From Clitopilus passeckerianus (Eukaryota; Basidiomycota; Agaricomycetes; Agaricales; Entolomataceae), in NCBI GenBank assembly GCA_944990035.1, contig CALYLX010000126.1, positions 1 through 64,000 on the forward strand: a stretch of 64,000 nt of DNA, in the 5' to 3' direction. Shown one piece after another: positions 8,502-64,000 of this stretch. The notes under the pieces were generated by a model. It worked only from the letters and a program-made list of their open reading frames with translations, had not been told where the DNA came from and did no database searches. A program made the translations under genes and the position numbers. Position 1 is the stretch's first letter, and each line of letters begins with the position of its first letter.

Positions 8502-10589
8502 GGAAACGTCAAATTTCGATTATGCTGTTTTGTGCATCGACCTCTTGATGTGCTAGCGCCGGCTAAGTTTTGGCTATTGGGGATCTTAATTGAAAATTCC
8601 CTGGCTTTGACTCAAGCTTCATGCCGCATGCTAGTGTGGCGCATCTCGTCGAAGACGTCGATCAAGGTCGATAAATTTTATTAGCCTCCATTCAATGCCT
8701 GACAATAAGTAGTATTAGGCCCTGCCTCGTTCAATGTCAACTAGAGCTTTGATTGGGCAAGGTGAAGGCATAGAGTCAGACATGTTCCGTAGGTTAAGTT
8801 TGCCGGCATCACGAAATCCTAGCTTGGCTGTGCCTATAGAACGTGGGCTCTTCCTGCCGGTGATGCATCGTAGGGCTGCTGCACTGATAGAACTTTGCTA
8901 AGCATGATCGGAGATTTGAATCATTTAAACTTCTCATGTAGGATGGCCTTTGTATGACTCCTTCAGGCCTGAGAAGACATCGGCATCCGGGCCAATTTAA
9001 GTCCCTGGCAAATGAATTTGACTAGAGAGCGTTACACCCATTTCTCCAAGGGAGATGACATCGCACGGAAGATCAATTGGCTTTTTCTGATAGACCGTTC
9101 TGGAACCAGGACCAGCAGAAGATGACAGTCAAACGACGAAATATCAATCTCAACAGCTCAGACATACTCGGTGTGCAATCAAGAAGGTGTCTTGATGGTA
9201 TCGCCATATTTCGCCTGATACACGCAGCCTCCACGACGCCTCGCCGGCTCTGAGAAAAACGCCTACAATTCGAGTCAGGCTGACAATAATATATCTATTT
9301 CTGCCTACGATCTTCTAGCTTTACATGCTCTCACGGTAATGAATTCGAACCGAAATTATGCATTCGGGCATTGTGGCTACCAATCTGAAATTTTGGCATT
9401 TTGCAGCTAGTAATAGCTGAGGATGATTTGCAACGTATTTATTTCACGACCTCGAGGCTCGAGGCTACTGTACACCCGTTCCCTATTTCGCAATACATGT
9501 GCCGAGCTTTCTGACTCTCTCCGAAAGAGTACACAATGGACTAGACATGGAAGCAATTTCGCCGGAACTGCGTTCTACAAAACTAGGCAGGCCACAAATT
9601 CCAACGATGAGCGGAATGGCATGGATCCTCGATGTAATTGTATTTGCCAGAAGGCAATCTACTCAATGTAGGCTCGAGATCCCGCTGTTCCAGAAATAAC
9701 GCGTCTACGACTTGTCACAATGAAATCTATAACTATTCACTGGCAGAGTCTTCTCTTCAGGCCTGAGTCGACCGTCCACAAACTTCGTCCCTCGGATATG
9801 CCACGTAATTTCTAGAAGAATATTCGGATGCCACCATAAAATGTTCCGAAAAATGGCCTGTAAGGCCTGGCACGGAAATATGAAGGCAGGTGTCTGAGTT
9901 TCGCTTGAGGTTTCTGGACGCCTACTACCACCCAATAGCGAAGTCCCGTAACGGGAGCCTGGCTAGAATAGTAGAATAGTGGTCAATTTGCCATTGTAAT
10001 CTGCTTGGCTCCTCCTAGCCTGGGAATATAAGGCGCTGGGTAAACAGGGGTTGGTGGGCACTGACGATTGACTGACAATGGCCCCCTGCCGAACGCCCGA
10101 ATATCGTTAATCAGATACACGCGGCTGTCCTCGAATTCTGATTTCCCCCCACAGGTCCCTGATATTGATCAACATCGTTTGATAGAATGAATACCAATCT
10201 CAACAGCTTTAAAGTACCTGATGGGTGCTACACAAATAGCTTCGGCTGAAAATCCCGATCCTCCACTTGAACCTAGTGGAGATCAACGCCTCGTCTCCTG
10301 CACTAGAAACTTTCCAGACTGTCTTGATAAACAACCTATGTGGAGCTAACCGAGTGAGAAGACCGGCAATTTCAAGGCCTACTGGGTGGTGAAGCGAAGG
10401 AAATGCATAAGGCGTTGCAATGGTTACAAATGGGCAACAAGTCAAGTTAAATCGGCAAATACATTGTGGTGCTGAATAAATTAAGAAAATGGTATGAGCA
10501 GTCCACTGGAACCGTAAGGTACGGCCGTAATAGGCTTAGAAGAGTGTATCTTGCGTCGACATTTTGACTCCAGTTCCTAGCTGCGAGTG
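8502..10589. other. Gene-poor stretch, no supported feature
   Basis: Two kilobases without a coherent reading frame on either strand. The short ORFs at 9423-9699 and 9705-9935 show no motif or exon structure. I saw no transposon ORF, terminal repeat or tRNA. It could hold old, unrecognisable gene remains. Confidence 0.4.
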
Positions 10590-11870
10590 TTACATGCAGA
10601 AGCGTAAAGGAGTCCAGTGCCACCATTTGGTCTCGGTTCGGTACTTGTGAGGCCAGTCCTTCTTCCATATTCGGCACTCTAGGTCTGCCAGAGTAAGGCT
10701 GTCCAACGCGCGTTCAAGATATTCGAGAGCCTCGTAGGCAGTTGGACGATCAGCAGGGTCAGTTTGAGTCATAGCATTCAGTAAATCGGAAAACCACTCC
10801 AGGCCATCGTATGCCTATATGTCACTGAATGGGTTTAGTGGTCAGATTCAGAAAAGTGGATAACGCACACTCATTGATTCCTTTAAGGCATTTCCTAGTT
10901 GATAAACGTCCATCTTAAAGGGGTCATACGGTACATCCATAGAACGCTCAGGAACTGTTTTATCCTGACCAACGATCCCAGTGTCCTTGATATTGATCTC
11001 CGCAGGGGGGTAACGGGAAGAGAGCCCGAAGTCAATGAAATAGTACTGGACCGGTCGAACCGACCACCGTTCGCGCCAGGAGAACTTGCTGTATAGGTCC
11101 CCGTTGTGAGTAAATTCTCGGGCAAAATGGATGCCTTTTGGAATCAGCTGAGTAATATCCATGCACATATTCAACAAACAGGCATCCCTAAGAACATCTT
11201 CAGTGAAACCCTGCCGCGTTGAGTTCAGAGCATACCGATGTGCAACGTTATGGCGGTGCATGAAGGCCAAACCCTGAGGAACTTGAGGTTGGACAAGCTC
11301 ATAAGAAAGAAAAACACGTGAGAATACCTTAAGAAACTGGTGAGAGGCTTCAAGAAACTCTCCGAATCGTCGAAATGGCAGGTTGTCGAAACACAGAAGC
11401 ATGGGCATCACGATAAAGACTTCCCCATCGGTTAGCGGGGACGAGAATGTGTCGAGAACAGGCACTGTGCGATTGTCGTTATTTCCAGGCTCCAATGAAT
11501 TGAGGTAGAGGCCCAAGGAGGATTCTTCAATGGAAACGCGCTTGATCACCACCTTCTTTCCGTCTTGTAGACGCGTCGCATCGATGACCACTTGGGATCC
11601 TGTATCAAACAAAGGCACTGAGATTGATATTACGACTGGTCGTTTCTAGTACCCACGAAGCTTGTGATTGTCTTCGGCATTGCCATCCTTAGGAGACTTA
11701 TCGTTGAGGCCCCAGGACGGGATCCAATCTGGATTGTAACGTGGCCGAAGTCTATAGCCCCTGGCTAACAGGAAGCCGAAGAGAGATACCCAGAAATGCT
11801 CAGCAGGCGATCTGAGCTCGTCAGGAGTATAGCGCGGCTCTGAGGTTTCTTTAGTAGCTCGTCTTCGCAT
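10590..11870 (-). CDS. Protein kinase-like domain protein
   Basis: The start is the ATG at 11870 (MRRRATKETSEPRYTPDELR). After an intron the N-lobe reads FDTGSQVVIDATRLQDGKKV, with the candidate ATP-binding lysine in KKVVIKRVS. Removing a 47-nt intron (about 11183-11235) restores the catalytic-loop motif NVAHRDACLLNMCMD. The DFG motif is in YYFIDFGLSSRYPPAEI. The C-lobe includes PFKMDVYQLGNALKESM and, after another intron, TQTDPADRPTAYEALEYLER. The protein ends KWWHWTPLRFCM, stop at 10590-10592. HRD and DFG are both present, so activity is plausible, although the glycine-rich loop is weak. Similar kinase-like proteins are expanded in mushrooms and have no assigned role. A C-terminal fragment of the same gene is duplicated at 28205-28604. 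Confidence 0.75.
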
Positions 11871-27011: not shown

Positions 27012-27728
27012 ATGAACGACTCAGAGGTTTCCCGAACGATTAAGGAAATCCCTGAAGGGCCTCGATGTAATCGCGCGAGGCGCAACCCCACCTATCGCAG
27101 ATTCTCAAACGATCCAACTATTGGCCGACGGACAGGAGTCAAAATACCGCTCTTAAATGCTGATGAAGATGGATTCGAGAACTTTGAGGCCTTACTTCGT
27201 GCATACGACTCCGCACTTCAGGCTACACAACATACAAAGGAACTATCCTTCGGGTTACTGGAATGCAATATTGGCCGACCTACCGCTCAATTTGATCCCT
27301 TATTTACCTCAAATGACACCGGGGAACAGTTTCTTTCTTCGAGCCATGGAATTGGCCCTTCGGGCCCGACAGGTTATGCTTCAGGCGATACCCTCTCTGA
27401 ATGTCTTCGGCTACTTTTAGCCATGGAAATATGCGCGATGAGACACTTATCCCAGCACGAACAGATGGATATTGGTGAATACTGGGAAGAAAATTCTGGG
27501 TGTATGCGCTGCGAATCGAAGCCGCCTTCTCAGCCTGGATGTCGTCCTGGAAGCCCTCAGACCCCGGAATTGGTCTCGGACACATCAAGCTTGAATAACT
27601 CACTGCTGACTGATATGGATGCGTCAAGTTCTGTACAAAGCTTTCTCGTCGAAGATGATCACCTCGAACCCCTGGTACTGCGTGATGCCGCTAGCATGGA
27701 GTACCTCGCGATTTTGTATGAGCCATAA
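27012..27728 (+). CDS. Mif2/CENP-C N-terminal-domain paralogue lacking the CENP-C motif and cupin
   Basis: 238 residues, intronless, from the ATG at 27012. Residues of about 20-65 align by eye with the N-terminus of the full Mif2 encoded at 29102. Here the paralogue has YRRFSNDPTIGRRTGVKIPL then DGFENFEALL, where Mif2 has YRGDNPQVGKKTGVAVQQIE then DGFEPFEELL. In CENP-C/Mif2 this N-terminal block contributes to inner-kinetochore (Mis12-complex) contacts. The remaining 170 residues do not resemble Mif2; they are polar and Ser/Pro-rich, ending DAASMEYLAILYEP. There is no WW-containing CENP-C nucleosome motif and no cupin. It could be a truncated duplicate under new selection or a decaying copy, but the frame is open throughout. 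It is close (158 bp) and divergent to SLM3. Confidence 0.72.
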   Translation: MNDSEVSRTIKEIPEGPRCNRARRNPTYRRFSNDPTIGRRTGVKIPLLNADEDGFENFEALLRAYDSALQATQHTKELSFGLLECNIGRPTAQFDPLFTSNDTGEQFLSSSHGIGPSGPTGYASGDTLSECLRLLLAMEICAMRHLSQHEQMDIGEYWEENSGCMRCESKPPSQPGCRPGSPQTPELVSDTSSLNNSLLTDMDASSSVQSFLVEDDHLEPLVLRDAASMEYLAILYEP

Positions 27729-27941
27729 CTCGAAGGCTGCGTATTCAGCCCGTAAGGGAACTTCAGCCCTTTGGAGAATGTGCAGTTTGCTGATTTGGTG
27801 CACAGAAGCTCACCCACTTAGACGACATCTCAGCTCACGTTCTCTGGCTCCCCAATCTGACAATGAACTTGACTCAAAGGAGGGCAAGAGGGCATCTCCA
27901 ATGCATCGCCACAATGACACAAAAGCCACTCGAGCACGAAA

Positions 27942-28137
27942 CTACAAAGCATGATCCCAATAACTCGTCTTTCCTTCTAGACGCTCTACGAGCGTTGCTG
28001 TATCTTGCATATCCGGATCCCCGTTCCCCATTATAAAGGATTCTCGAACAACTCGTTTCAAATCGTATCGGCAATTATCCAACCCGTATCGCAACGCAAT
28101 TTCTTGGAAGAAGACATGAAGTACCTGCAAATAGCAT
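27942..28137 (-). pseudogene. Possible orphan terminal exon
   Basis: After an acceptor-like tttgcag, the minus strand reads VLHVFFQEIALRYGLDNCRY, then DLKRVVRESFIMGNGDPDMQ, and ends ERLEGKTSYWDHAL with a stop. The codon choice and the end look coding, but no upstream exon was found. It may be a gene remnant trapped between the two Mif2-related genes. Confidence 0.25.
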
Positions 28138-28204
28138 GTGTATTATAAAGTAATTGAGGCCTAATTAAAGCAGGAACGCAAAGCTAGAAACAAAGCCAGA
28201 AGAT

Positions 28205-28604
28205 TCTTAGAATGGCTGCAGAAGTGTAGGACCCACAAAGTGGACGAAAGAGCTATGGGTGCACCATATTGCCCCTTCAAAATAGACGTTTATCAGCTAG
28301 GAAATGCTTTGAAGGAGTCAATGAGCGTGCGTTCTCCGCGTTTAAAATCTGACCATCAAACCAATTAACCGACGTACAGGCATACGATGGCTTGGAATGG
28401 TTTTCTGATCTGCTGGATGCTGTGACACAAACTGACCCGGCCAATCGACCAACTGCCCGCGAGGCTCTGGAGGGCCTTGAACGCTCGTTGGATAGCTTCA
28501 CTCAAGCAGACCTGGAGCGTCGAATATGGAACAAGGACTGGCCTCTCAAGTACCGAACCGAGACCAAATGGTGGAGCTGGACTCCTTTACGCTTCTGCAT
28601 GTAG
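28205..28604 (+). pseudogene. C-terminal fragment of the protein kinase-like gene at 10.6-11.9 kb
   Basis: It encodes ERAMGAPYCPFKIDVYQLGN, ALKESM, an intron, then AYDGLEWFSDLLDAVTQTDP, ANRPTAREALEGLERSLDSF and KWWSWTPLRFCM with a stop. This matches the end of the kinase-like gene residue for residue in long stretches. The intron (about 28326-28379) is in the same place and its 5' end is also similar at DNA level (gtgcgtt). No HRD or DFG region precedes it, so it is a 5'-truncated copy in opposite orientation to its parent, inserted between the Mif2-like gene and MIF2. Confidence 0.8.
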
Positions 28605-29101
28605 AACTCGTAGCTGGGGATTTGAATTCAAGAGCCCGCGAGCAATACACCTACTTCAAAACGTCTTTGAGCCTGGTTCACCGTCCCAGCGTACTACTCC
28701 CGTATTACTATTAATTTCATCTACCGGACGCAATGGTGTATTGAGCAATCAAATCCTAATTGTCGTAGGTTTTTTCGAAGTTCGAACAATTGAGATGAGT
28801 TGGGAGGTTAGTTATTAGTGTCAGACTCATACAATCCGGATCATGCACGTCTTTGCATCGTAACGGCAGACTTCAATTTCAATGAGGATTGGAATCGACG
28901 CGCCCAGAGAGCAGGCCGGTCCGAGCAAGCAAACGCAAACAAACGCGTCTCGCGTCCTTTGTTTGATTCCCACGCGACCAGCCCTCCAATCATCTCTTGA
29001 GTTCGCCACACTTTGGGTAACTTCGGTCGACTTTACTTAAATTCATCAAAAGTTCCCAAACTTCCTCAAAGTTGGGCAAAGTTGGGCAAATTTTGTCGAA
29101 G
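28605..29101. other. MIF2 promoter and leader region
   Basis: This 497-bp region holds the MCB-type 14-mer (28936-28949) and a two-copy repeat caaagttggg near 29066-29085 just before the start codon. No gene was seen. Confidence 0.45.
28936..28949. promoter_or_regulatory. MCB-type element (ACGCGT core) upstream of MIF2
   Basis: CAAACAAACGCGTC, identical over 14 bases to the element at 26872-26885, about 150 bp before the MIF2 start codon. G1/S cell-cycle control through MBF is a reasonable inference for a kinetochore gene, but untested here. Confidence 0.5.
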
Positions 29102-31186
29102 ATGCCCTCATCTGCACGCAAGAGCAGCATAGGCGCCGCGCGCCGCGGCCTTCAAAAGGCACACATACCCTATCGTGGTGACAACCCTCAAGTAGGCAAG
29201 AAGACTGGCGTTGCAGTACAGCAAATCGAGAGGAAGTCGGATGGTTTCGAGCCATTCGAGGAGCTGCTTCAACAAGCAGATGACAAGACGCCTCCCCGGA
29301 GAGCAGTCAAGAAGCGGAAGAAGAGCATTGCCGTGGTACAGGAATACGATGAGGATGGCGAGATGTCAATGGAATTGGACGATAGTATGTTACGTTTCTT
29401 GATCAGCTGAAGCTCCGGGCTCACGAGCACCAACAGGTCCCATGCAATACTTTGAGAACGCACGGCAGCCTAGTAGCCCTTCCGACAGGAGAATGAGCAA
29501 TGGCCAGTACCTGTCTTCACGCACAGTATCACGCGTCTCCGAGGTCGATTTCGACTCCATACCCTCCCCACGAGCGCGTACATCTATGCGTAAATCTATG
29601 GGACGAAGCTCAAGTGTTGGGCCCTCGCACCTCTCGCGTGCATACTCCGCAGACGACATGGAGATTGATTCGGATCCCTTGCAAACTGGAGGTCATGAGC
29701 ACTCACCCGAAGTTATGCCTGAGGGACCAAGCTTCAGTCGGATGGACCAGGAAGACGATGATGATGACGACGACGATGTTGGTGGCCTGGAATACGATTA
29801 TGGTGCCCCTATGGATGATTACGATGACATGCCACCCATGCCACAGGATAGTCCACCTTCTGCAAAGAAAGCATCAGGGCAGCAAAAGAGACGCGGCGCA
29901 CTTTCGGATGTTCCAGAAGAGGGGGAGTCGGACGTAGAGGATGAGATTGCGAGAGGGCTATCGCAAGTGGACGAACAGGAGTTCTCCGATGATGAAGATA
30001 GGCACCAGGAGAGTCCAGAACCGGAACCGGAGCCAGTGCCACCAAAGAAGAAGGCAAAAGTCGTTCTTGAGGTACCTGTTAGAAGTCCTAAGACCTCACA
30101 GAGCAGATCAAAGAAAGAGAATCGACGTAAGCTCTCTTCTTTACACGCATATAGCCAATTCTAACAATTTTTTCTCTAGCCACCCGGGAAGGCGTCCGCA
30201 AGTCCAAACGTAAACACTATCCTCCACTTGAATGGTGGCGCGGCGAGAAGATTGTGTATGGGCGGAAATCCCGACATGGCGACGACCCGGATCCTGACAC
30301 CTCTGGTCCCATTCGCTGCGCTCCGATTGCAAAAATCGTACGGATACCCAAAGAGGAGCCAGAACCTCTGGGAGCAGCTAAGAAGAGAAGATCAAGAGGG
30401 AGGAGTAAGAGCAAAGTTCCGGATAGTGAGGTCAAGGTTGTTTACGACAACAACCCGGAGGAGGGTTGGGACGAGGAGACACCTCAGCATTGTGTTGTGC
30501 TGGATTTCACAACTAAGGAGGAGGTGCAACGACGTAAGCTCTCATCAGGAATCTTCTTTTGCAGTTGACTCATTCTGGCTTTCCTGAAGGCATTGCGATG
30601 ACTGCGAAGTCACTAGCTCTCAAACCTACGGCTGGTGGTAGCTGGTCATTCCAAAAGGTGTTTGGCGACGCCGATTTCTTTGCGGCTGGTATGCTGTCGA
30701 TTCCTCCTAAATCGAGGAAGGACACGAAAACCACGAAGGATAATACCTATGTACGGGCTCTCCTCTTCTGCTATCTGAAAAGTACTCAATGAAAGCGCAC
30801 AGGTCTTTTTGGTTGTCGAAGGTGCTGTAAACCTGAAGATTCACGAAACCAGCCTCGTTCTAGCCACCGGAGCGATGTTCATGGTGCCCAGAGGTATGAC
30901 TCCCTCACTTCGTGTCACCACTCAAAATGTTAACCCCCACTTAGGCAACTCATATTTCATTGAGAACATTGGCGACCGAGATGCCAAAATCTTCTTCACC
31001 CAAGCACGGAAAGTTGCTTCTGATGACCCAGAAGCCATCCAGGCGACTCCAAGACCCCTACAGCCGCCTCTCAGTGGACGAGATAAAGCACCTACCAGGT
31101 CGTCAAGCGCGGGTCCGGAAAGTCGCTCTGCTAGGGCCTTGTCGAAGATGCCTGCTCAGAAGAGAGCTATGTCGACGAAGGCTTGA
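29102..31186 (+). CDS. MIF2: Inner kinetochore protein Mif2 / CENP-C
   Basis: It binds centromeric CENP-A nucleosomes and recruits outer-kinetochore complexes. The ATG at 29102 gives MPSSARKSSIGAARRGLQKA, then the Mif2 N-terminal block (GDNPQVGKKTGVAVQQIERK). After a 52-nt intron (about 29385-29436) comes a long acidic, Ser-rich middle. After the intron at about 30125-30178 the CENP-C signature reads REGVRKSKRKHYPPLEWWRG, with the Arg and Trp-Trp residues that bind the nucleosome. The dimerising cupin follows: GSWSFQKVFGDADFFAAGML, KDNTYVFLVVEGAVNLKIHE, FMVPRGNSYFIENIGDRDAK. The junction near 30526-30566 needs a 41-nt intron; the obvious gtaagc donor would leave 31 nt in the wrong phase. The end is MPAQKRAMSTKA. 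Flanked on both sides by partial Mif2 paralogues. Confidence 0.92.
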
Positions 31187-31626
31187 GGTGTCGTTTTGGG
31201 AGCCGAGGGGTATGGTGCTGGGTCTTTTAGATAAATTATTGTATTTCTTTTCTCCAGAACTCTTCTGCTTATAACGTGTTACCTGCACGCTTACTCCTGG
31301 TTTATGCTGTTGCTATCGTTCCCACTGCTTTTTTCTAAACACATTTGTATTCTAGTCATTGACATGATTTATGAGATATGATCATATGTATCCTATTCTT
31401 TCCTGGTGACTCTGAAATAGTTCACCTTCTGAGCCATTGAGCTCAAGCCGGCGAAGACGGAGCCTCACTTCGATGAGCCCCATTTGTGTGATCTTGTGGC
31501 CAAAGCCGTGGAGTCCAAACAAAACGGTAGAACGCGCATGACATCTGCAGGACACTGCTTTCCGCCCAACAGCTACCACTCGAAAACTCCATTGCTTTGA
31601 CTATCATTCTATACGACGATACGAAC
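31187..31626. other. MIF2 / cupin-paralogue spacer
   Basis: 440 bp between same-strand genes, no reading frame supported. It must hold the MIF2 terminator and the promoter of the next gene. The exact 14-mer found upstream of the other two Mif2-related genes is absent; only an AACGCGC at about 31531 is similar. Confidence 0.4.
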
Positions 31627-32971
31627 ATGGAACCTGGAACTTCAATCAACATAGATGCTACCGGGTTAACACGAGAAAGCTCGAATTCAGAGCCGGAAAT
31701 GGGAAGTGCAAGGATTTCTCAAGACCAGGCCCCAGAGGCTCCGGAATCTCCATTGCTGGTTGACACAGAGATGACTCAAAGCAAACTCCAAGTAGCGGAG
31801 AATGACAAGGTTCAGGAGGAACTACCTATCCAAACGCCCGTATCTGAGCACTCTGCAACCCCTCCACCCCCACCGACCAAAAGCACCCTGCTCGAGTCAG
31901 AGCGGGTCGAACTTTCTCGGAAGATTAGCTCACAAGGGAAGGAGGAGGTACCAATGGAGGAAGAAGCACAAGTACCTGAGACGCCTGTTGCCCAGGTCGA
32001 GCCACAAGTACAAGAAAGCACAACTGAGCCTGGCCCATCGACTTCAACGACCACGAAGCGCCGACGGCCAAAATCAGCTATCTCTGGCTCATCTCTTGGT
32101 ATTGTTGACGATAACACACCGGTGCGAGGAGAAGTGCTCGACTTCCACTCATCCGAAATCGTCACCCGTCGTGAGTCCATCCGTCGCCTCGTGAAGGAAT
32201 CATGTGTTTAACTGAATGAACGTGTGCAGGACTAACATTCCCGTCAAAACTCATCTTCAGTCGACCTCATATACCATACCAAGAAGGCTGGGCGTTCCAG
32301 AAGGTGTTTCATGAAGACGAATTGATGGCCTCAGGGTTTTTGTTTCTTGAGGTTAATGGGAGGAAGCCAATAAAACACACGAAAAATAATACATATGTAT
32401 GTGGCTTGGCTCTTCCCCGTTCTCTCTTCATGTGCTTACGCTTCGATCACGTAGATGATGCTTGTGCTAGAAGGAGCAGTAGCCATTGAGATACACCGAA
32501 CAACCTATGTCCTATGTCCAGGCAGTTCATTCCATCTACCAAGAGGTTAGTATCCACTTCCTTCCCTCCATTTCCCAATGTCCTCATCTCCGTACCACAG
32601 GAAACACCTACTCCATATCCAACATCTCCAACCGCGAAGCCAAGCTCTTCTTCGTGCAAGCCGTCCAAACACCCCCACCCACATCCCAACGCAACGACAG
32701 CCTCCTCACCTCCCTCAAGCTCCTCGCCAAACCCACCACCCGCGCATCCATGCTCTTCCACTGGCTCGCACCCCGCATCATCTCGCGGTACCTCGAGCTT
32801 CGAAAGTTCTTGTTGGTTTGGTATCAGCAGAATCTGGCAAAATACGAACATCATTTGGCGGGCAGGAGGGCGTATTGGCTGTGTTTCATCTTGGGGCTGA
32901 TGGTTAGGAGGCTTCCTTTCATTGGGTCGCCTCCGATTCTGAATATCCAGTTCGTGAGGACGAGGCGATAG
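31627..32971 (+). CDS. Mif2/CENP-C cupin-domain paralogue with a new C-terminal extension
   Basis: The ATG at 31627 gives MEPGTSINIDATGLTRESSN, then about 150 polar residues unlike Mif2. After DDNTPVRGEVLDFHSSEIVT (Mif2 has DEETPQHCVVLDFTTKEE) the cupin follows: EGWAFQKVFHEDELMASGFL, KHTKNNTYMMLVLEGAVAIE, FHLPRGNTYSISNISNREAK. Two introns, after the NTY and within the PRG of the cupin, are at the same positions and phase as in MIF2, proving common descent. The Mif2 N-terminal block and the WW-type CENP-C motif are absent. The last 80 or so residues (from LLTSLKLLAKPTTRASMLFH, including RRAYWLCFILGLMVRRLPFI) have no Mif2 counterpart and are hydrophobic and basic. The cupin mediates Mif2 dimerisation, so heterodimerisation with Mif2 is possible but inferred. 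Confidence 0.8.
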
Positions 32972-59850: not shown

Positions 59851-60303
59851 CTGGGATGGATAGTCAATGCGGACGAGAAGTTGTCTGTGAACGTTTCTCG
59901 TGACCTGACTCAGACTCAGAGCCTCATTCTGCCACTCGTCGTCCATCGGACCCGTTCCCATCGCCATCGTATTTCAGTCTGATTATCCACCGTCGTACAT
60001 TTGTGCACCCGCATCACCATGAATGAGGCAACACTTTGCATGAAATTAGCCATACCGCACAATGCGGAACTTTGACGCCCAAGTATTTATGGGATCACCG
60101 AGTCCGTGGGAACGATTTAGCTAAGCGCCATTGTAGACGCCCATAAATGCTTCCGTTTCTTGGCAGACACTTGTCCGCCGCAGATCACCCTAACGGCCGC
60201 ACATGAAGGAATTGACACGCCCGAGTGCGGACCATCGAATATGAATACCAGTGCTATCCATGCCACTTAATACAACTCAAAGTTGCCGGATTTCACCACC
60301 AAG
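59851..60303. other. Divergent spacer, promoter of the first P450 gene
   Basis: 450 bp between a minus-strand hypothetical gene and the P450. No specific element was recognised. Confidence 0.4.
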
Positions 60304-62581
60304 ATGCCAGTATTCGACACAGTGACGATACGACTTGAAGACCTCTCCCTCATGCCAACCCAGCCTCTGGTCCTCATCGCAGCTGGCGTTTTCGTTTGGG
60401 CAGGGTACAAGCTCGCTCTTTATGGCCAGAGAGAACCTTACCTCCCTCCTGGGCCTCCAACGAAGCCGCTTGTTGGGAATATACTTATGTTGGCGAAGAA
60501 GGGTAGTCATTTTCAGTGAGTAATGGAATCATCTCCTTGCCTCAGAAGCTGACTGTTCTCCTCGCCCGCCCTCTTTAGGTTCGCAGAATGGGCCTCCCAA
60601 TACGGCGACATATTCAGCCTAAAGCTGGCGCACAAGACGCTTGTCGTCCTGAGCTCGTACGAAGCAATTCACCACGTAATGGAGAAGAACTCCGCCTTCT
60701 CTTCAGACCGACCTTCTGTGCATATCGAGGATCGGATTGGGGGGCAGAATAATAACGTCGCTCTGTACGTCTTACGAGTCTCTTCTTACTAGTCCTATCA
60801 TCTAACATTTTTCTATGTTCATTGTTCCATTAGGGCTCGATATGGTACGTACTCCTCGCACCAAGACCTATCTAGACTTTAACTCTCACATACCACTACT
60901 CGTACGACCACCAGGCGATAGATGGCGCTCCCTCCGGCGCGCAGCTCAACAAGTCCTCTCTTCTCACGCCTGCAGATCCCACCTCGGGATCCAACAAGCA
61001 GAAAGCAACCAACTTATGTACGATATTCTCAAGTCACCCGAGGTACGTCCTTCTCTGCAATACACTAATACCCCTGATACTACTCTGCTACCTAGGACGT
61101 CCGTACGCACCTTCGCCGTACCTCAACCTCCGTCATCAACTCCGTAATGTTCGGCCTCCGCTTCCCCACACCCTCCTCCCCCCTCTACCTCTCCTTTTGG
61201 CGAATGGTCGAGCTCGCCATGCTTCTCTCCTCCCCCACCGAACACCCGCCCGTCGATCTATTCCCCTTTTTGAAACATATACCTGAGAGGTGGGCAGCGT
61301 GGAAAGGAAAATGCAGGGAGTTGAAGGAGAAGCACGGGAGAGTGTTGGGAGAGATGTTGAAGCCTGTTGAGGAGAGGTTGGAGAAGGGGGTGGGGAATGG
61401 GGCGTTCATGGAGGAGGTATATACAAGGGCGGGAGAGTGGAACTTGGATCGTGATGCGTTGCGGTTTGTTTTCTCCCTTTGTCTGGGTCAGGATCTGTAC
61501 TGATTGACTCTTTCACAAATAGGTCATTCGGCTACGTGATGATGGTTGCAGGCGCCGAAACCACCTCGACATTCCTACAGCTATTCGTCCTCTGCATCGC
61601 TGCCCACCCGGAGGTTTTGCCGAAGCTGCATGAGGAGATGGATAGAGTCGTTGGGACCGATAGGGTACCAGAGTTGGATGATTTCGAGAATTTGCCGTAT
61701 TTGAAAGCTGTTGTTGCTGAGGTGCGTTTTGAGCCATTTATTACGAAACCGTTTTCCTGAGAAGGAATTCTGCGATTCGGTAGACCACCCGATTCCGACC
61801 CGTCCTCCCACTTGGCATCCCACATGCTGCAATTGAAGATATCCAGTACAAGAATTATGTTATCCCTAAAGGAAGTATCATCTTCCAGAATAGTTGTGGG
61901 CCCTTTTCCTCCTCACACATCTAGAGGAATGCGCTGATAGAGATTCTGTCGGCAGGGAGCACATTCCGCGATCCAAATCTATTCAAGGATCCAGATATGT
62001 TCAACCCCGAGAGGTTTATCGAGCAGCCAGAGCTGCATAAATATCCTGATTATGCGTTTGGGTCTGGGAGGGTAAGTCTTCCGTATGCTAGGGTCTTCGA
62101 GAAACAGAGTCTAACAGGCCTTTTAATTGATCTAGCGTGCATGCGTGGGCATACATCTAGCTCATAGCGCCATCGTGAGTACATCTTCTATCTGCGGTGG
62201 TTCAAAAGACGAGAGAGCTAATTATTACGGCGAACAGAAAATCAACGCGATGAACCTCGTATACTTCTTCAACATCTCCAAAGCGCTAGATGCGGACGGG
62301 AACACTATAGAGCCGAATCTTCATATCTGCAGAGAGGTATATTGATTCTTCCCTTCTCACTCCATTCGAATAAACGTCGTGGTATACTGACACTAATTGG
62401 CTCGTAGGGTCTTGTACAAACTCCTGAGGAAGTCAACGTCTCAATCAAGCCGCGTAGCGCACATCATGTGGAGGTGCTGAGGAAGGCGTTTAGAGATTCG
62501 GAGGAGGCGTTTACGCCGTTTGAGTATAATTTGGACGAGGAGGAGAGAAGGAGTGCGAGGGAGGTGAGGAAGGCTGCTTGA
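60304..62581 (+). CDS. Cytochrome P450 monooxygenase (copy 1)
   Basis: A microsomal heme-thiolate monooxygenase. The ATG at 60304 precedes a membrane anchor (PLVLIAAGVFVWAGYKLALY) and a proline hinge (LPPGPPTKPLVGNILML). About ten introns interrupt the gene. One exon of only 11 nt (about 60835-60845) is needed to read VALARYGDRWRSLRRAAQQV, the C-helix WxxxR. The I-helix has MMVAGAETTSTFLQLF. The ExxR motif (AVVAE-TTR) is restored by an intron at about 61723-61786. QNSWSTFRDPN follows, then FNPERFIEQPELHKYPDYAF and the heme loop FGSGRRACVGIHLA with the axial Cys. All key residues are present, so it is probably active, in specialised metabolism or detoxification. Substrate unknown. Related to OrdA-like basidiomycete P450s by overall style. 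Confidence 0.9.
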
Positions 62582-62639
62582 GTCGTGTGTATTGGAGAAA
62601 CTCGAAGTTATTTTTGGACTCTGTAATGACGAGCAAAGG

Positions 62640-62885
62640 TCAAAGCATAGACGAATTTAGTGTTGAACGCCGAGCGCTGAACCCCAGTGAGATCAATTGA
62701 ACTGTGCGATTTGGATTAGGCGCTGTATATGGGCTATTTTACACAGGTACAGAATTGGGAACGACCCATACAAGTTAGGATATTGCTAGTTTCTCCCTCC
62801 AACCAACCCTGCTCCACCCTCGCGCAAAACAACATCACATTTGCAGAGAACGGCAAAGCAAGCATCATTCATACGGCTCATCGCG
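62640..62885 (+). repeat. Diverged copy of the segment at about 58930-59175
   Basis: Matching pieces in the same order and orientation are gcgctgaaccc-gtgagatca, gcgctgta-atg, gaacgacccat, ttaggatat and ctcgcgcaa-a-ca-catcat, followed by gaa-ggcaaagca. The segment covers the 3' end of the minus-strand hypothetical gene at 58967-59850. Here it lies in the gap between the two convergent P450 genes and encodes nothing intact. Confidence 0.7.
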
Positions 62886-62934
62886 GGGAGAACTCTACAA
62901 CGTAAGAAACCCTCTAACCACATCTCCAAACTTC

Positions 62935-64000
62935 TCAAGCACCCCGCCTCATCTCCCTCGCCTCCCTCCTCTCCTCCTCCCCCAAATTATACTCAAACGG
63001 CCTAAACGCCTCCTCCGAATCTCTAAACGCCTTCCTCAGCACCTCCTCATGATGTTTGCTGCGGGGCTTGAGGGAAACGTTCACTTCTTCCGGACTTTGT
63101 ACGACACCCTAAAGCAGTGCCAGCCGATTAGCATTGACGATTACTGGAGTGAAAACGGTGAGAAAGGATCAATGGTGAACGCACCTCTCGACAGAAATGA
63201 AGATTCGGCTCTATGACGTCTCCGTTCGTATCTAGGGCTTTGGCGATGTTGAAGTAGTAGACGAGGTTCATCGCGTTGAGTTTCTATTCGCATTCGTCCC
63301 AATTAGCTCTCTCTTTCTCCCCAAACCACCACATAAGAGAGATACTCACAATAGCGCTATGAGCCAGATGTATACCGACGCATGCACGCTAGATCGAACA
63401 AAGGGCCGTTTAGACTGTAATTCTCGAAGGAAAATCCAGACATGCGAAAGACTTACCCTCCCAGACCCAAACGCATAATCAGGATACTTATGCAACTCCG
63501 GCTCCTCCACAAACCTATCCGGATTGAACCTCTCCGGCTCTTTCCATATATTCGAATCGCGGAACATGCTCCCTGCAAGACCAATCTTATCAGTTCCATT
63601 CCCCCTGACCTCCAGATGTATATGGGGGAAAATAAAGGGAAGGGAGACGTACAGCTATTCTGGAATATAATACTCCCCTTCGGAATAACATAATTCTTAT
63701 ACTGAATATCCTCAATCGCAGCATGTGGGACGCCGAGTGGGATGACGGGTCTGAATCGGGTGGTCTATCGTCCAAAGATCACACAAATCCCAATCAGTTC
63801 CACGAGGCCTTCCCTTCAACAGAAGAGAGAAACGCACCTCAGCAACAACAGCCCTCAAATACTCCAACCTCTCAAAATCGTCCAACTCAGGTCCCCTATC
63901 CGTACCCACGACTCTATCCATCTCCTCATGCAGCTTCGGCAGGACCTCCGGGTGGGCAGCGATGCAGAGGATAAAGATTTGTAAAAAGGTCGAGGTCGTT
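62935..64000 (-). CDS. Cytochrome P450 monooxygenase (copy 2, cut by the window edge)
   Basis: The C-terminal half of a close paralogue of the neighbouring P450, on the opposite strand, so the two genes converge. From the right edge it reads TSTFLQIFILCIAAHPEVLP, HEEMDRVVGTDRGPELDDFE, then the ExxR motif (AVVAE-TTR) rebuilt by an intron. RFRPVIPLGVPHAAIEDIQY, QNSWSMFRDSNIWKEPERFN and the heme loop FGSGRRACVGIHLA follow. The C-terminal exon includes EEVNVSLKPRSKHHEEVLRK, ending REMRRGA at 62935. Intron positions equal those of copy 1. No frameshift was seen, so it is probably functional. The N-terminal half, including the membrane anchor, lies beyond 64000. Confidence 0.9.

Follow-up and report, generated by a model that had tools for sequence, protein, structure and literature searches.

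CENP-C is usually described as one protein with three tasks, namely linkage to centromeric nucleosomes, dimer formation and attachment to the outer kinetochore. Loss of most of the inner kinetochore has been reported for 23 of 31 basidiomycete orders, with CENP-C the only known linker that is left (PMC7794384). CENP-C cupins form dimers in yeast and fly, the partners named for this domain are fly CAL1 and fission-yeast Moa1, and fly mutants without the cupin dimer are reported to lose CAL1 recruitment (PMC7110144). For the other end of the protein, RxxG has been given as the Mtw1-complex-binding consensus in the N-termini of yeast Mif2 and Ame1 (PMC7360964). It has also been described that the Caenorhabditis CENP-C gene, hcp-4, duplicates, partial duplicates included, and that the hcp-4 exons found in the hcp-3L8 fusion of C. 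afra lack the CENP-C motif (PMC9577544), and a report on fly paralogues mentions an older co-duplication of Cenp-C and Cid for the Drosophila subgenus (PMC12724597).

The window analysed here is a stretch of 64,000 nucleotides from one contig (C125) of the basidiomycete Clitopilus passeckerianus, in which a full MIF2 gene lies between two partial paralogues, termed LEFT and RIGHT (Table 1). The initial annotation had recognised three same-strand, Mif2-related genes whose flanking members divide the domains of Mif2 between them, and this layout is confirmed by coordinates, alignments, shuffled-sequence comparisons and Pfam. The haplotypes compared were C125 and a second contig, C33, of the 64.8 Mb assembly. 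The three genes occur in identical order on both, at a DNA difference of about 10% to the right of position 28253, and on each contig separate start and stop codons are found for MIF2 and for RIGHT, which argues against the notion that LEFT and RIGHT derive from mis-joined contigs or that RIGHT is merely the 3' part of MIF2. That notion draws on a third contig, C124, which is a mosaic (C125-like up to window position 28250, C33-like beyond) with frame breaks in MIF2 itself and in RIGHT, and it is very improbable. C124 was set aside as a third independent allele on account of its mosaic structure and broken frames, its rows were left out of the conclusions and its one-base deletion in a G run of LEFT was therefore not scored as decay.

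Table 1. Features of the MIF2 locus, with positions given in the window.
Feature	Position	Strand	Residues	Remarks
LEFT	27012..27728	+	238 aa	ATG 27012, stop 27726-27728; single open frame; N-terminal-only Mif2 paralogue
LEFT Mif2-like stretch	27108..27209	+	33-66	NDPTIGRRTGVK...DGFENFEALLRAYD; holds R-x-x-G
Remnant	28165..28604	+		Gene-like, repeated sequence that separates LEFT from MIF2; kinase-like by eye only
MIF2 (CENP-C)	29102..31186	+	606 aa	Six exons
MIF2 exons	29102-29384, 29437-30126, 30180-30533, 30590-30750, 30803-30893, 30945-31186	+
N-terminal block of Mif2, common to LEFT	29180..29281	+	27-60	K-K-T-G, versus R-R-T-G in LEFT
CENP-C nucleosome-binding motif of MIF2	30185..30262	+	327-352	REGVRKSKRKHYPPLEWWRGEKIVYG; CENP-C chain alignments
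MIF2 cupin (CENP-C_C)	30646..31003	+	462-546	Two introns inside; PF11699 1.8e-26
RIGHT	31627..32971	+	390 aa	Cupin-bearing CENP-C paralogue; four exons
RIGHT exons	31627-32170, 32230-32396, 32455-32545, 32601-32971	+
RIGHT cupin	32292..32659	+	203-287	Two introns inside; PF11699 (CENP-C_C) 2.9e-24, above cut-off
RIGHT C-terminal tail	32660..32968	+	288-390	Conserved; absent from Mif2; long helix predicted

The central gene belongs to the CENP-C/Mif2 family, with both the nucleosome-binding motif and the cupin present. The motif (REGVRKSKRKHYPPLEWWRGEK) is spanned by long alignments to CENP-C chains (7by0, 1.2e-11; 7on1, 9.4e-10) and gives weak matches to three short motif peptides (7bxt, 0.013; 4x23, 0.11; 6qld, 0.23), while a PDB search with the Mif2 N-terminus returned nothing credible. 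Between C125 and C33 the dN/dS of MIF2 is 0.04.

The right-hand gene is tied to CENP-C by its cupin, for which the nearest solved structures are those of Cnp3 (6o2d, 1.9e-11) and Mif2 (2vpv, 3.1e-9). Seven PDB matches were obtained with RIGHT, the six best being five chains named Cnp3, Mif2 or CENP-C together with 7on1_C, a yeast sequence whose stretch aligned to RIGHT resembles Mif2, and the seventh a generic cupin at E 0.26. Against the neighbouring Mif2, RIGHT reaches a local score of 317 (shuffle mean 41, with none of 300 shuffles reaching 317) and 44% identity over 129 aligned codons; identity over the aligned cupin is 49% with its own MIF2, 30% with S. pombe Cnp3 and 34% with S. cerevisiae Mif2. 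On sequence grounds, RIGHT arose when MIF2, either entire or in its cupin half, was duplicated at the DNA level, because all three introns of RIGHT, one before the cupin and two within it, match those of MIF2 in codon and phase (MIF2 codons 443, 497 and 527 corresponding to RIGHT codons 182, 238 and 268, in phases 1, 0 and 1, respectively). The dS between the paralogues is saturated, at 2.5 against an allelic dS of 0.28-0.29, and the duplication is therefore old. The remaining hallmarks of Mif2 were not detected in RIGHT: the nucleosome-binding motif is absent from its translation, with PDB matches confined to the cupin, and the N-terminal Mis12/Mtw1-binding block is missing from a protein whose alignment to Mif2 begins only at Mif2 residue 285. 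Between RIGHT and LEFT no similarity was found either (score 35, shuffle mean 35.6, reached by 155 of 300 shuffles). The description of this gene as cupin-only thus stands with regard to the cupin and the lacking nucleosome motif, and has to be amended for a head of low complexity (some 165 residues, judged by eye) and a conserved tail of about 100 residues that the gene adds.

The frame of RIGHT is intact on both C125 and C33, its dN/dS is 0.136 (0.08-0.21), and its differences are distributed over the three codon positions as 18, 13 and 68. For residues 166-390, which comprise cupin and tail, dN/dS falls to 0.063 (0.01-0.17), and for the tail, in which 102 of 103 residues are the same on the two haplotypes, it is 0.054. 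As judged from this allelic comparison, RIGHT is an old, maintained gene under purifying selection that is strongest in the cupin and the added tail. The initial annotation had named recent, decaying duplicates as the alternative, to be recognised by absence from related strains together with neutral dN/dS and missing transcripts, and RIGHT, intact and under purifying selection on two haplotypes, does not show this pattern.

With respect to what such a gene might do, RIGHT would be expected to act as a cupin dimer, either with itself or mixed with Mif2. As it is without the nucleosome-binding and the outer-kinetochore-binding motifs, it could arrive at the centromere only via Mif2 or via its own tail, and the tail would recruit or anchor something beyond the reach of Mif2 alone. 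A single-sequence AlphaFold2 model of the tail has a mean pLDDT of 60, with three 10-residue helix blocks at 77-82, and the tail contains a short hydrophobic stretch with a 19-residue hydropathy maximum of 1.40; the usual threshold for a membrane span is 1.6. On the other hand, the cupin could have a task outside centromeres, and cupin and tail may together have been co-opted into another role, for example as a nuclear or membrane-associated scaffold. This would agree with RIGHT lacking the two motifs by which CENP-C is positioned in the kinetochore, and with the new tail, in which the predicted helix and the hydrophobic stretch lie, being one of the most conserved features of RIGHT; however, generic cupins match the RIGHT cupin far less well than CENP-C does and the hydropathy peak stays below the membrane-span threshold, so that co-option away from the centromere is considered somewhat unlikely.

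The left-hand gene was claimed to keep the N-terminal block of Mif2 without the nucleosome motif, and both parts of this claim hold. Its residues 33-66 align to Mif2 residues 27-60 (34 residues) with a local score of 78, a value reached by none of 1000 shuffles (mean 38.6, sd 5.8, maximum 61), and when the assembly was searched with LEFT at E up to 1, six of the nine matches were LEFT itself on three contigs and the other three were copies of MIF2, at E 0.03-0.04. By sequence, the R-x-x-G in this stretch resembles the consensus given for Mtw1-complex binding by the yeast proteins Mif2 and Ame1, which makes it a candidate Mis12/Mtw1-binding block. LEFT has neither nucleosome motif nor cupin and matches no CENP-C family, nor any other Pfam family, above cut-off; its PDB search gave no credible relative and its AlphaFold2 model has a mean pLDDT of 33. 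A gene for Mis12, to which such an N-terminal block would bind, is present in the assembly, with matches on two contigs (C79 and C141).

It is the C33 haplotype that tells the two flanking genes apart, RIGHT being intact on both contigs and LEFT on C125 only. On C33 the open frame of LEFT has no ATG ahead of the Mif2-like block, and between the BLAST matches flanking LEFT this contig is 67 bases shorter than C125, a size also given by alignment, in which the difference appears as a deletion that removes the start codon, although the size of this 5' deletion is alignment-dependent, since one alignment pairs the first 27 residues with C33 letters at 33% identity rather than with a gap. Two frame-breaking one-base deletions follow at 27399 and 27562. 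The latter lies in a C run and may be an assembly error, because C33 also shows one-base homopolymer differences in a neighbouring open reading frame (36272, 36304 and 36523), and the former falls outside any run. Over all residues the dN/dS of LEFT is 0.71 (0.48-1.08), with differences of 35, 37 and 43 by codon position; for residues 28-238, with the badly aligned first 27 left out, it is 0.585 (0.37-0.98), which excludes 1, and lower values are found for residues 28-72 (0.21, Fisher p 0.006) and for a stretch near 125-169 (0.145). The divergence of LEFT from C33 (0.142 in a long alignment, or 0.16 from 115 of 712 sites in another) is lower than in introns (0.21-0.22) and than in the adjoining spacers (0.195 and 0.277). 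For stretches as short as these a low ratio is by itself no proof of function, given that a piece of the decayed remnant beside LEFT (28353-28604) has a dN/dS of 0.38. With its overall ratio and its broken C33 copy, LEFT comes close to the decaying duplicate named beforehand, though it retains some constraint in residues 28-238; most likely, it is a weakly constrained, decaying paralogue.

The remnant itself (28165-28604) extends for about 1 kb more on C124 and C33. It has no Pfam match and the PDB set gives two kinases at E 0.9; the eight matches to its sequence take in the remnant and its C33 and C124 alleles, a further site at 10.6 kb of the window along with the alleles of that site, and sites on C26 and C123. 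A gene model joining LEFT and the remnant was rejected, as the remnant recurs elsewhere and is longer on the two other contigs.

Taken together, an intact and constrained RIGHT and a broken, weakly constrained LEFT suggest a retained cupin paralogue and a probable relic rather than a matched pair of modulators, and it is fairly probable that the locus holds a tandem CENP-C family of which one partial paralogue has been retained and the other is probably being lost. The R-x-x-G block of LEFT would formerly have served to bind the Mis12/Mtw1 complex, and the gene would now be a segregating relic. The initial annotation had instead proposed that both partial genes could be competitors or modifiers of the kinetochore, for example in meiosis, dikaryon nuclear pairing or centromere drive; LEFT would then compete for Mis12/Mtw1 and RIGHT would act as competitor or partner in cupin dimerisation. 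The intact RIGHT and the purifying selection on it suit this proposal, as do the R-x-x-G block kept in LEFT, the constraint there and near 125-169, the upper bound just below 1 for residues 28-238, and the finding that an N-terminal peptide of yeast Ame1 that shares this consensus is a competitor of Mif2 for the Mtw1-Nnf1 pair (PMC7360964). The LEFT half is weakened by the C33 copy, whose frame is broken and lacks a start ahead of the block, by the weak overall constraint (dN/dS 0.71), and by the lack of nucleosome motif, cupin or Pfam family above cut-off, and modulation by both genes is quite unlikely. A bolder proposal, which we regard as unlikely, would make RIGHT a dedicated second cupin paired with Mif2. 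Mixed CENP-C dimers would then form the base of the kinetochore in this lineage, and the RIGHT arm, devoid of the motifs for nucleosome and outer kinetochore, would recruit a lineage-specific factor by its conserved tail, as a compensating hub where most of the inner kinetochore has been lost, tuned until recently by LEFT as a free outer-kinetochore-binding decoy. Under the favoured reading of a tandem family with one retained member, the long retention of a cupin-only paralogue, in a fungus left with CENP-C as its only known linker, would show that a gene of its own can encode the dimerisation part of CENP-C, and RIGHT raises the testable question of what a CENP-C cupin does alone.

Searches beyond the locus added little. 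No relatives of the locus proteins were found in DNA scans of viral contigs, a single match on a bacterial contig (L036) was rejected as probably due to chance (an eight-residue word in an unrelated-looking bacterial open reading frame), and an NCBIfam search gave nothing of use. CENP-N had no match in the assembly and none in the control genomes, so this search is uninformative. A histone search gave 33 matches.

A split or modulated CENP-C system of this kind was, in the initial annotation, not known to be described. Partial duplicates have been published in nematodes (PMC9577544) and flies (PMC12724597); in fungi, no partial CENP-C paralogue was found among the matches listed by a literature search with most subscription journals outside its scope. 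Compared with fungal Mif2/CENP-C (S. cerevisiae Mif2, S. pombe Cnp3), MIF2 of this locus is alike in nucleosome motif, cupin and N-terminal block, and the RIGHT cupin matches both Cnp3 (6o2d) and Mif2 (2vpv), whereas RIGHT consists only of a cupin and a new tail and LEFT only of the N-terminal block. LEFT also recalls Ame1/CENP-U, the second Mtw1-complex receptor of budding yeast, by an R-x-x-G as in the Mif2 and Ame1 N-termini (PMC7360964), but it is a relative of Mif2, is not known to have a partner on the chromatin side, and has a broken copy on one of the two haplotypes. In Drosophila, Cenp-C has likewise been duplicated with intron positions kept, with partial tandem copies in D. birchii, but the montium group is reported to have two intact paralogues, called very young (PMC12724597). 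In Caenorhabditis, duplicates of kinetochore genes are described as frequent and short-lived, which we count as a likeness, as are partial hcp-4 paralogues without the nucleosome motif; the partial copy of C. afra, on the other hand, is fused to CenH3 (PMC9577544), whereas RIGHT is an old, cupin-bearing gene that adjoins MIF2 in a fungus.

Within less than 6 kb of the + strand lie three genes, MIF2, which is the CENP-C gene, and its two flanking partial paralogues, here called LEFT and RIGHT, and the gene models, the cupin matches and a shuffle test of LEFT against Mif2 bear out the three-gene CENP-C array with partial flanks that had been proposed in the initial annotation. The exon models of MIF2 and RIGHT, for which GT-AG introns were chosen so that the frame stays open, are valid on both the contig carrying the window (C125) and a second contig (C33), with intact frames on each.

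Gene models of the CENP-C array (window coordinates)
Gene	Position	Strand	Model
LEFT	27012-27728	+	one open frame, 238 residues
MIF2	29102-31186	+	six exons, 606 aa
RIGHT	31627-32971	+	four exons, 390 aa

The assembly comprises 64.8 Mb in 160 contigs, and the locus is also present on C33, which carries a second haplotype, and on a third contig, C124. DNA divergence of C33 from the window is about 10% to the right of 28253, against about 5% in the interval 2580-26902. C124, a 74-kb contig, was set aside because of its mosaic structure, resembling C125 up to window 28250 and C33 beyond, and because its MIF2 and RIGHT frames are broken; it is either derived from a third, recombinant nucleus, and then contains sequence errors, or a chimera produced in assembly. 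The stretch at 60103-64000 is repeat-rich, with 74-88% identity to several regions of C33, some in direct and some in inverted orientation. A repeated gene-like sequence occurs at 28165-28604, between LEFT and MIF2, and at 10546-11861; it is decayed at the MIF2 locus and kinase-like by eye, but it has no Pfam match and the only relatives in the PDB set are two kinases at E 0.9. Its segment 28253-28604 has 8 matches in the assembly, self and alleles counted.

Mif2 itself carries a cupin of the CENP-C type (PF11699, 1.8e-26 in Pfam), and its nucleosome-binding motif falls inside long alignments to the CENP-C chains 7by0 (1.2e-11) and 7on1 (9.4e-10), three short motif peptides matching it at only 0.013 to 0.23. 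Past the cupin, residues 551-606 (window 31016-31183) are identical in protein between C125 and C33, with 14 synonymous and 0 non-synonymous differences over 56 codons, which is strong conservation for a low-complexity tail.

The cupin of RIGHT is likewise of the CENP-C type (2.9e-24, Pfam). RIGHT has seven matches in the PDB: the first six are CENP-C, five being so named and 7on1_C recognised from its alignment, and the seventh is a generic cupin at 0.26. Its introns, at codons 182, 238 and 268, correspond to the last three of MIF2 (443, 497 and 527) in phases 1, 0 and 1, and RIGHT therefore arose by DNA duplication and not as a reverse-transcribed copy, its source being either the whole of MIF2 or only the 3' half. 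The two cupins share 49% identity over the aligned core, and either shares 30% with S. pombe Cnp3. Since dS between RIGHT and MIF2 is saturated (2.5, against 0.28-0.29 between alleles), the duplication is old, without a date. Among the best candidates, the only ones scored, residues 181-390 of RIGHT gave 17 assembly matches at E up to 1, all at MIF2/RIGHT on the three contigs, and the cupin family gave 19, of which two lie elsewhere and below cut-off. The tail, residues 288-390, has no Mif2 counterpart, no Pfam or NCBIfam family above cut-off and, among the best-scoring candidates, no second copy in the assembly; a single-sequence model predicts, with moderate confidence (mean pLDDT 60), a 35-residue helix, and the hydropathy maximum of 1.40 over 19 residues indicates no clear membrane span.

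Selection was compared between C125 and C33 (Nei-Gojobori dN/dS, codon bootstrap ranges), and the two paralogues part here: RIGHT gives 0.136 (0.08-0.21) over the whole gene and LEFT 0.71 (0.48-1.08), or 0.585 (0.37-0.98) minus its badly aligned first 27 residues, with MIF2 at 0.04 (0.02-0.07). Within RIGHT, dN/dS is 0.171 (0.10-0.28) for residues 1-165, 0.063 (0.01-0.17) for 166-390 and 0.054 (0-0.24) for the tail, where 102 of 103 residues are the same on both contigs. Differences at first, second and third codon positions number 9, 10 and 98 in MIF2, 18, 13 and 68 in RIGHT, and 35, 37 and 43 in LEFT. For comparison, two ORFs in the next gene region have dN/dS of 0.085 and 0.03, three pieces of the tRNA_Me_trans-family gene to the left (one of them checked by Pfam) 0.12 to 0.33, and the decayed remnant at 28353-28604 0.38. 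The earlier reading of both flanks as possible competitors or modifiers of the kinetochore is half right: judged by its sequence, RIGHT is a cupin paralogue that has been retained and carries a new tail, and LEFT is most likely a decaying paralogue.

It has been shown that CENP-C cupins form dimers and that in the fly the cupin dimer is required for CAL1 recruitment (PMC7110144). RIGHT, whose sequence contains neither the nucleosome motif nor the outer-kinetochore motif, would pair with Mif2 as a mixed dimer, or self-dimerise and act via its tail. A role beside Mif2 is favoured because the cupin retains CENP-C character. If this fungus is an agaricomycotine, as the initial annotation assumed, Mif2 is likely its only conserved linker (PMC7794384), and a second cupin would then be of greater interest.

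LEFT matches no Pfam family above cut-off, and does not resemble RIGHT (score reached by 155 of 300 shuffles). Its similarity to the Mif2 N-terminus (34 residues, score 78) is beyond chance, none of 1000 shuffles exceeding 61. The interval between the BLAST matches flanking LEFT is 67 bases shorter on C33 than on C125; one alignment places this as a deletion removing the start codon, whereas the other, with 33% identity, distributes C33 letters across the first 27 residues. By either, the C33 open frame has no ATG ahead of the Mif2-like block, though an upstream exon may exist. A one-base deletion on C33 at 27399, outside any homopolymer, causes a frameshift with a stop six codons later, and another lies at 27562 within a C run. 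In a neighbouring 831-residue ORF three one-base homopolymer differences (36272, 36304 and 36523) between C125 and C33 point either to an intron that was missed or to errors in one of the two contigs, and single-base calls within runs are therefore unsafe.

On the other hand, evidence against plain neutrality comes from residues 28-72, the Mif2-like block, where 8 differences are synonymous and 6 non-synonymous (dN/dS 0.21; Fisher p 0.006, with p 0.60 for the remainder of LEFT). Low dN/dS is not confined to this block: it falls to 0.145 in a stretch near 125-169, and among 194 sliding windows ordered by dN the one at residue 28 comes 11th. Given these constrained stretches and a C125-C33 divergence of 0.14 to 0.16, below that of introns (0.21-0.22) and adjoining spacers (0.195 and 0.277), LEFT was coding during part of the period after the two haplotypes diverged. 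Its Mif2-like block contains R-R-T-G where Mif2 has K-K-T-G; in yeast an R-x-x-G consensus of Mif2 and Ame1 is required for binding the Mtw1-Nnf1 pair, for which an Ame1 peptide and Mif2 compete (PMC7360964). A Mis12 gene is present in the assembly, and LEFT might bind the Mis12/Mtw1 complex.

In the literature searched we noticed no partial or full CENP-C duplicate from fungi, and protein databases might hold many unnamed orthologues of RIGHT. Partial and full duplicates have been published for Drosophila (PMC12724597) and for Caenorhabditis, where seven hcp-4 duplicates are described in 32 species, one partial copy being a CenH3 fusion without the CENP-C motif (PMC9577544).
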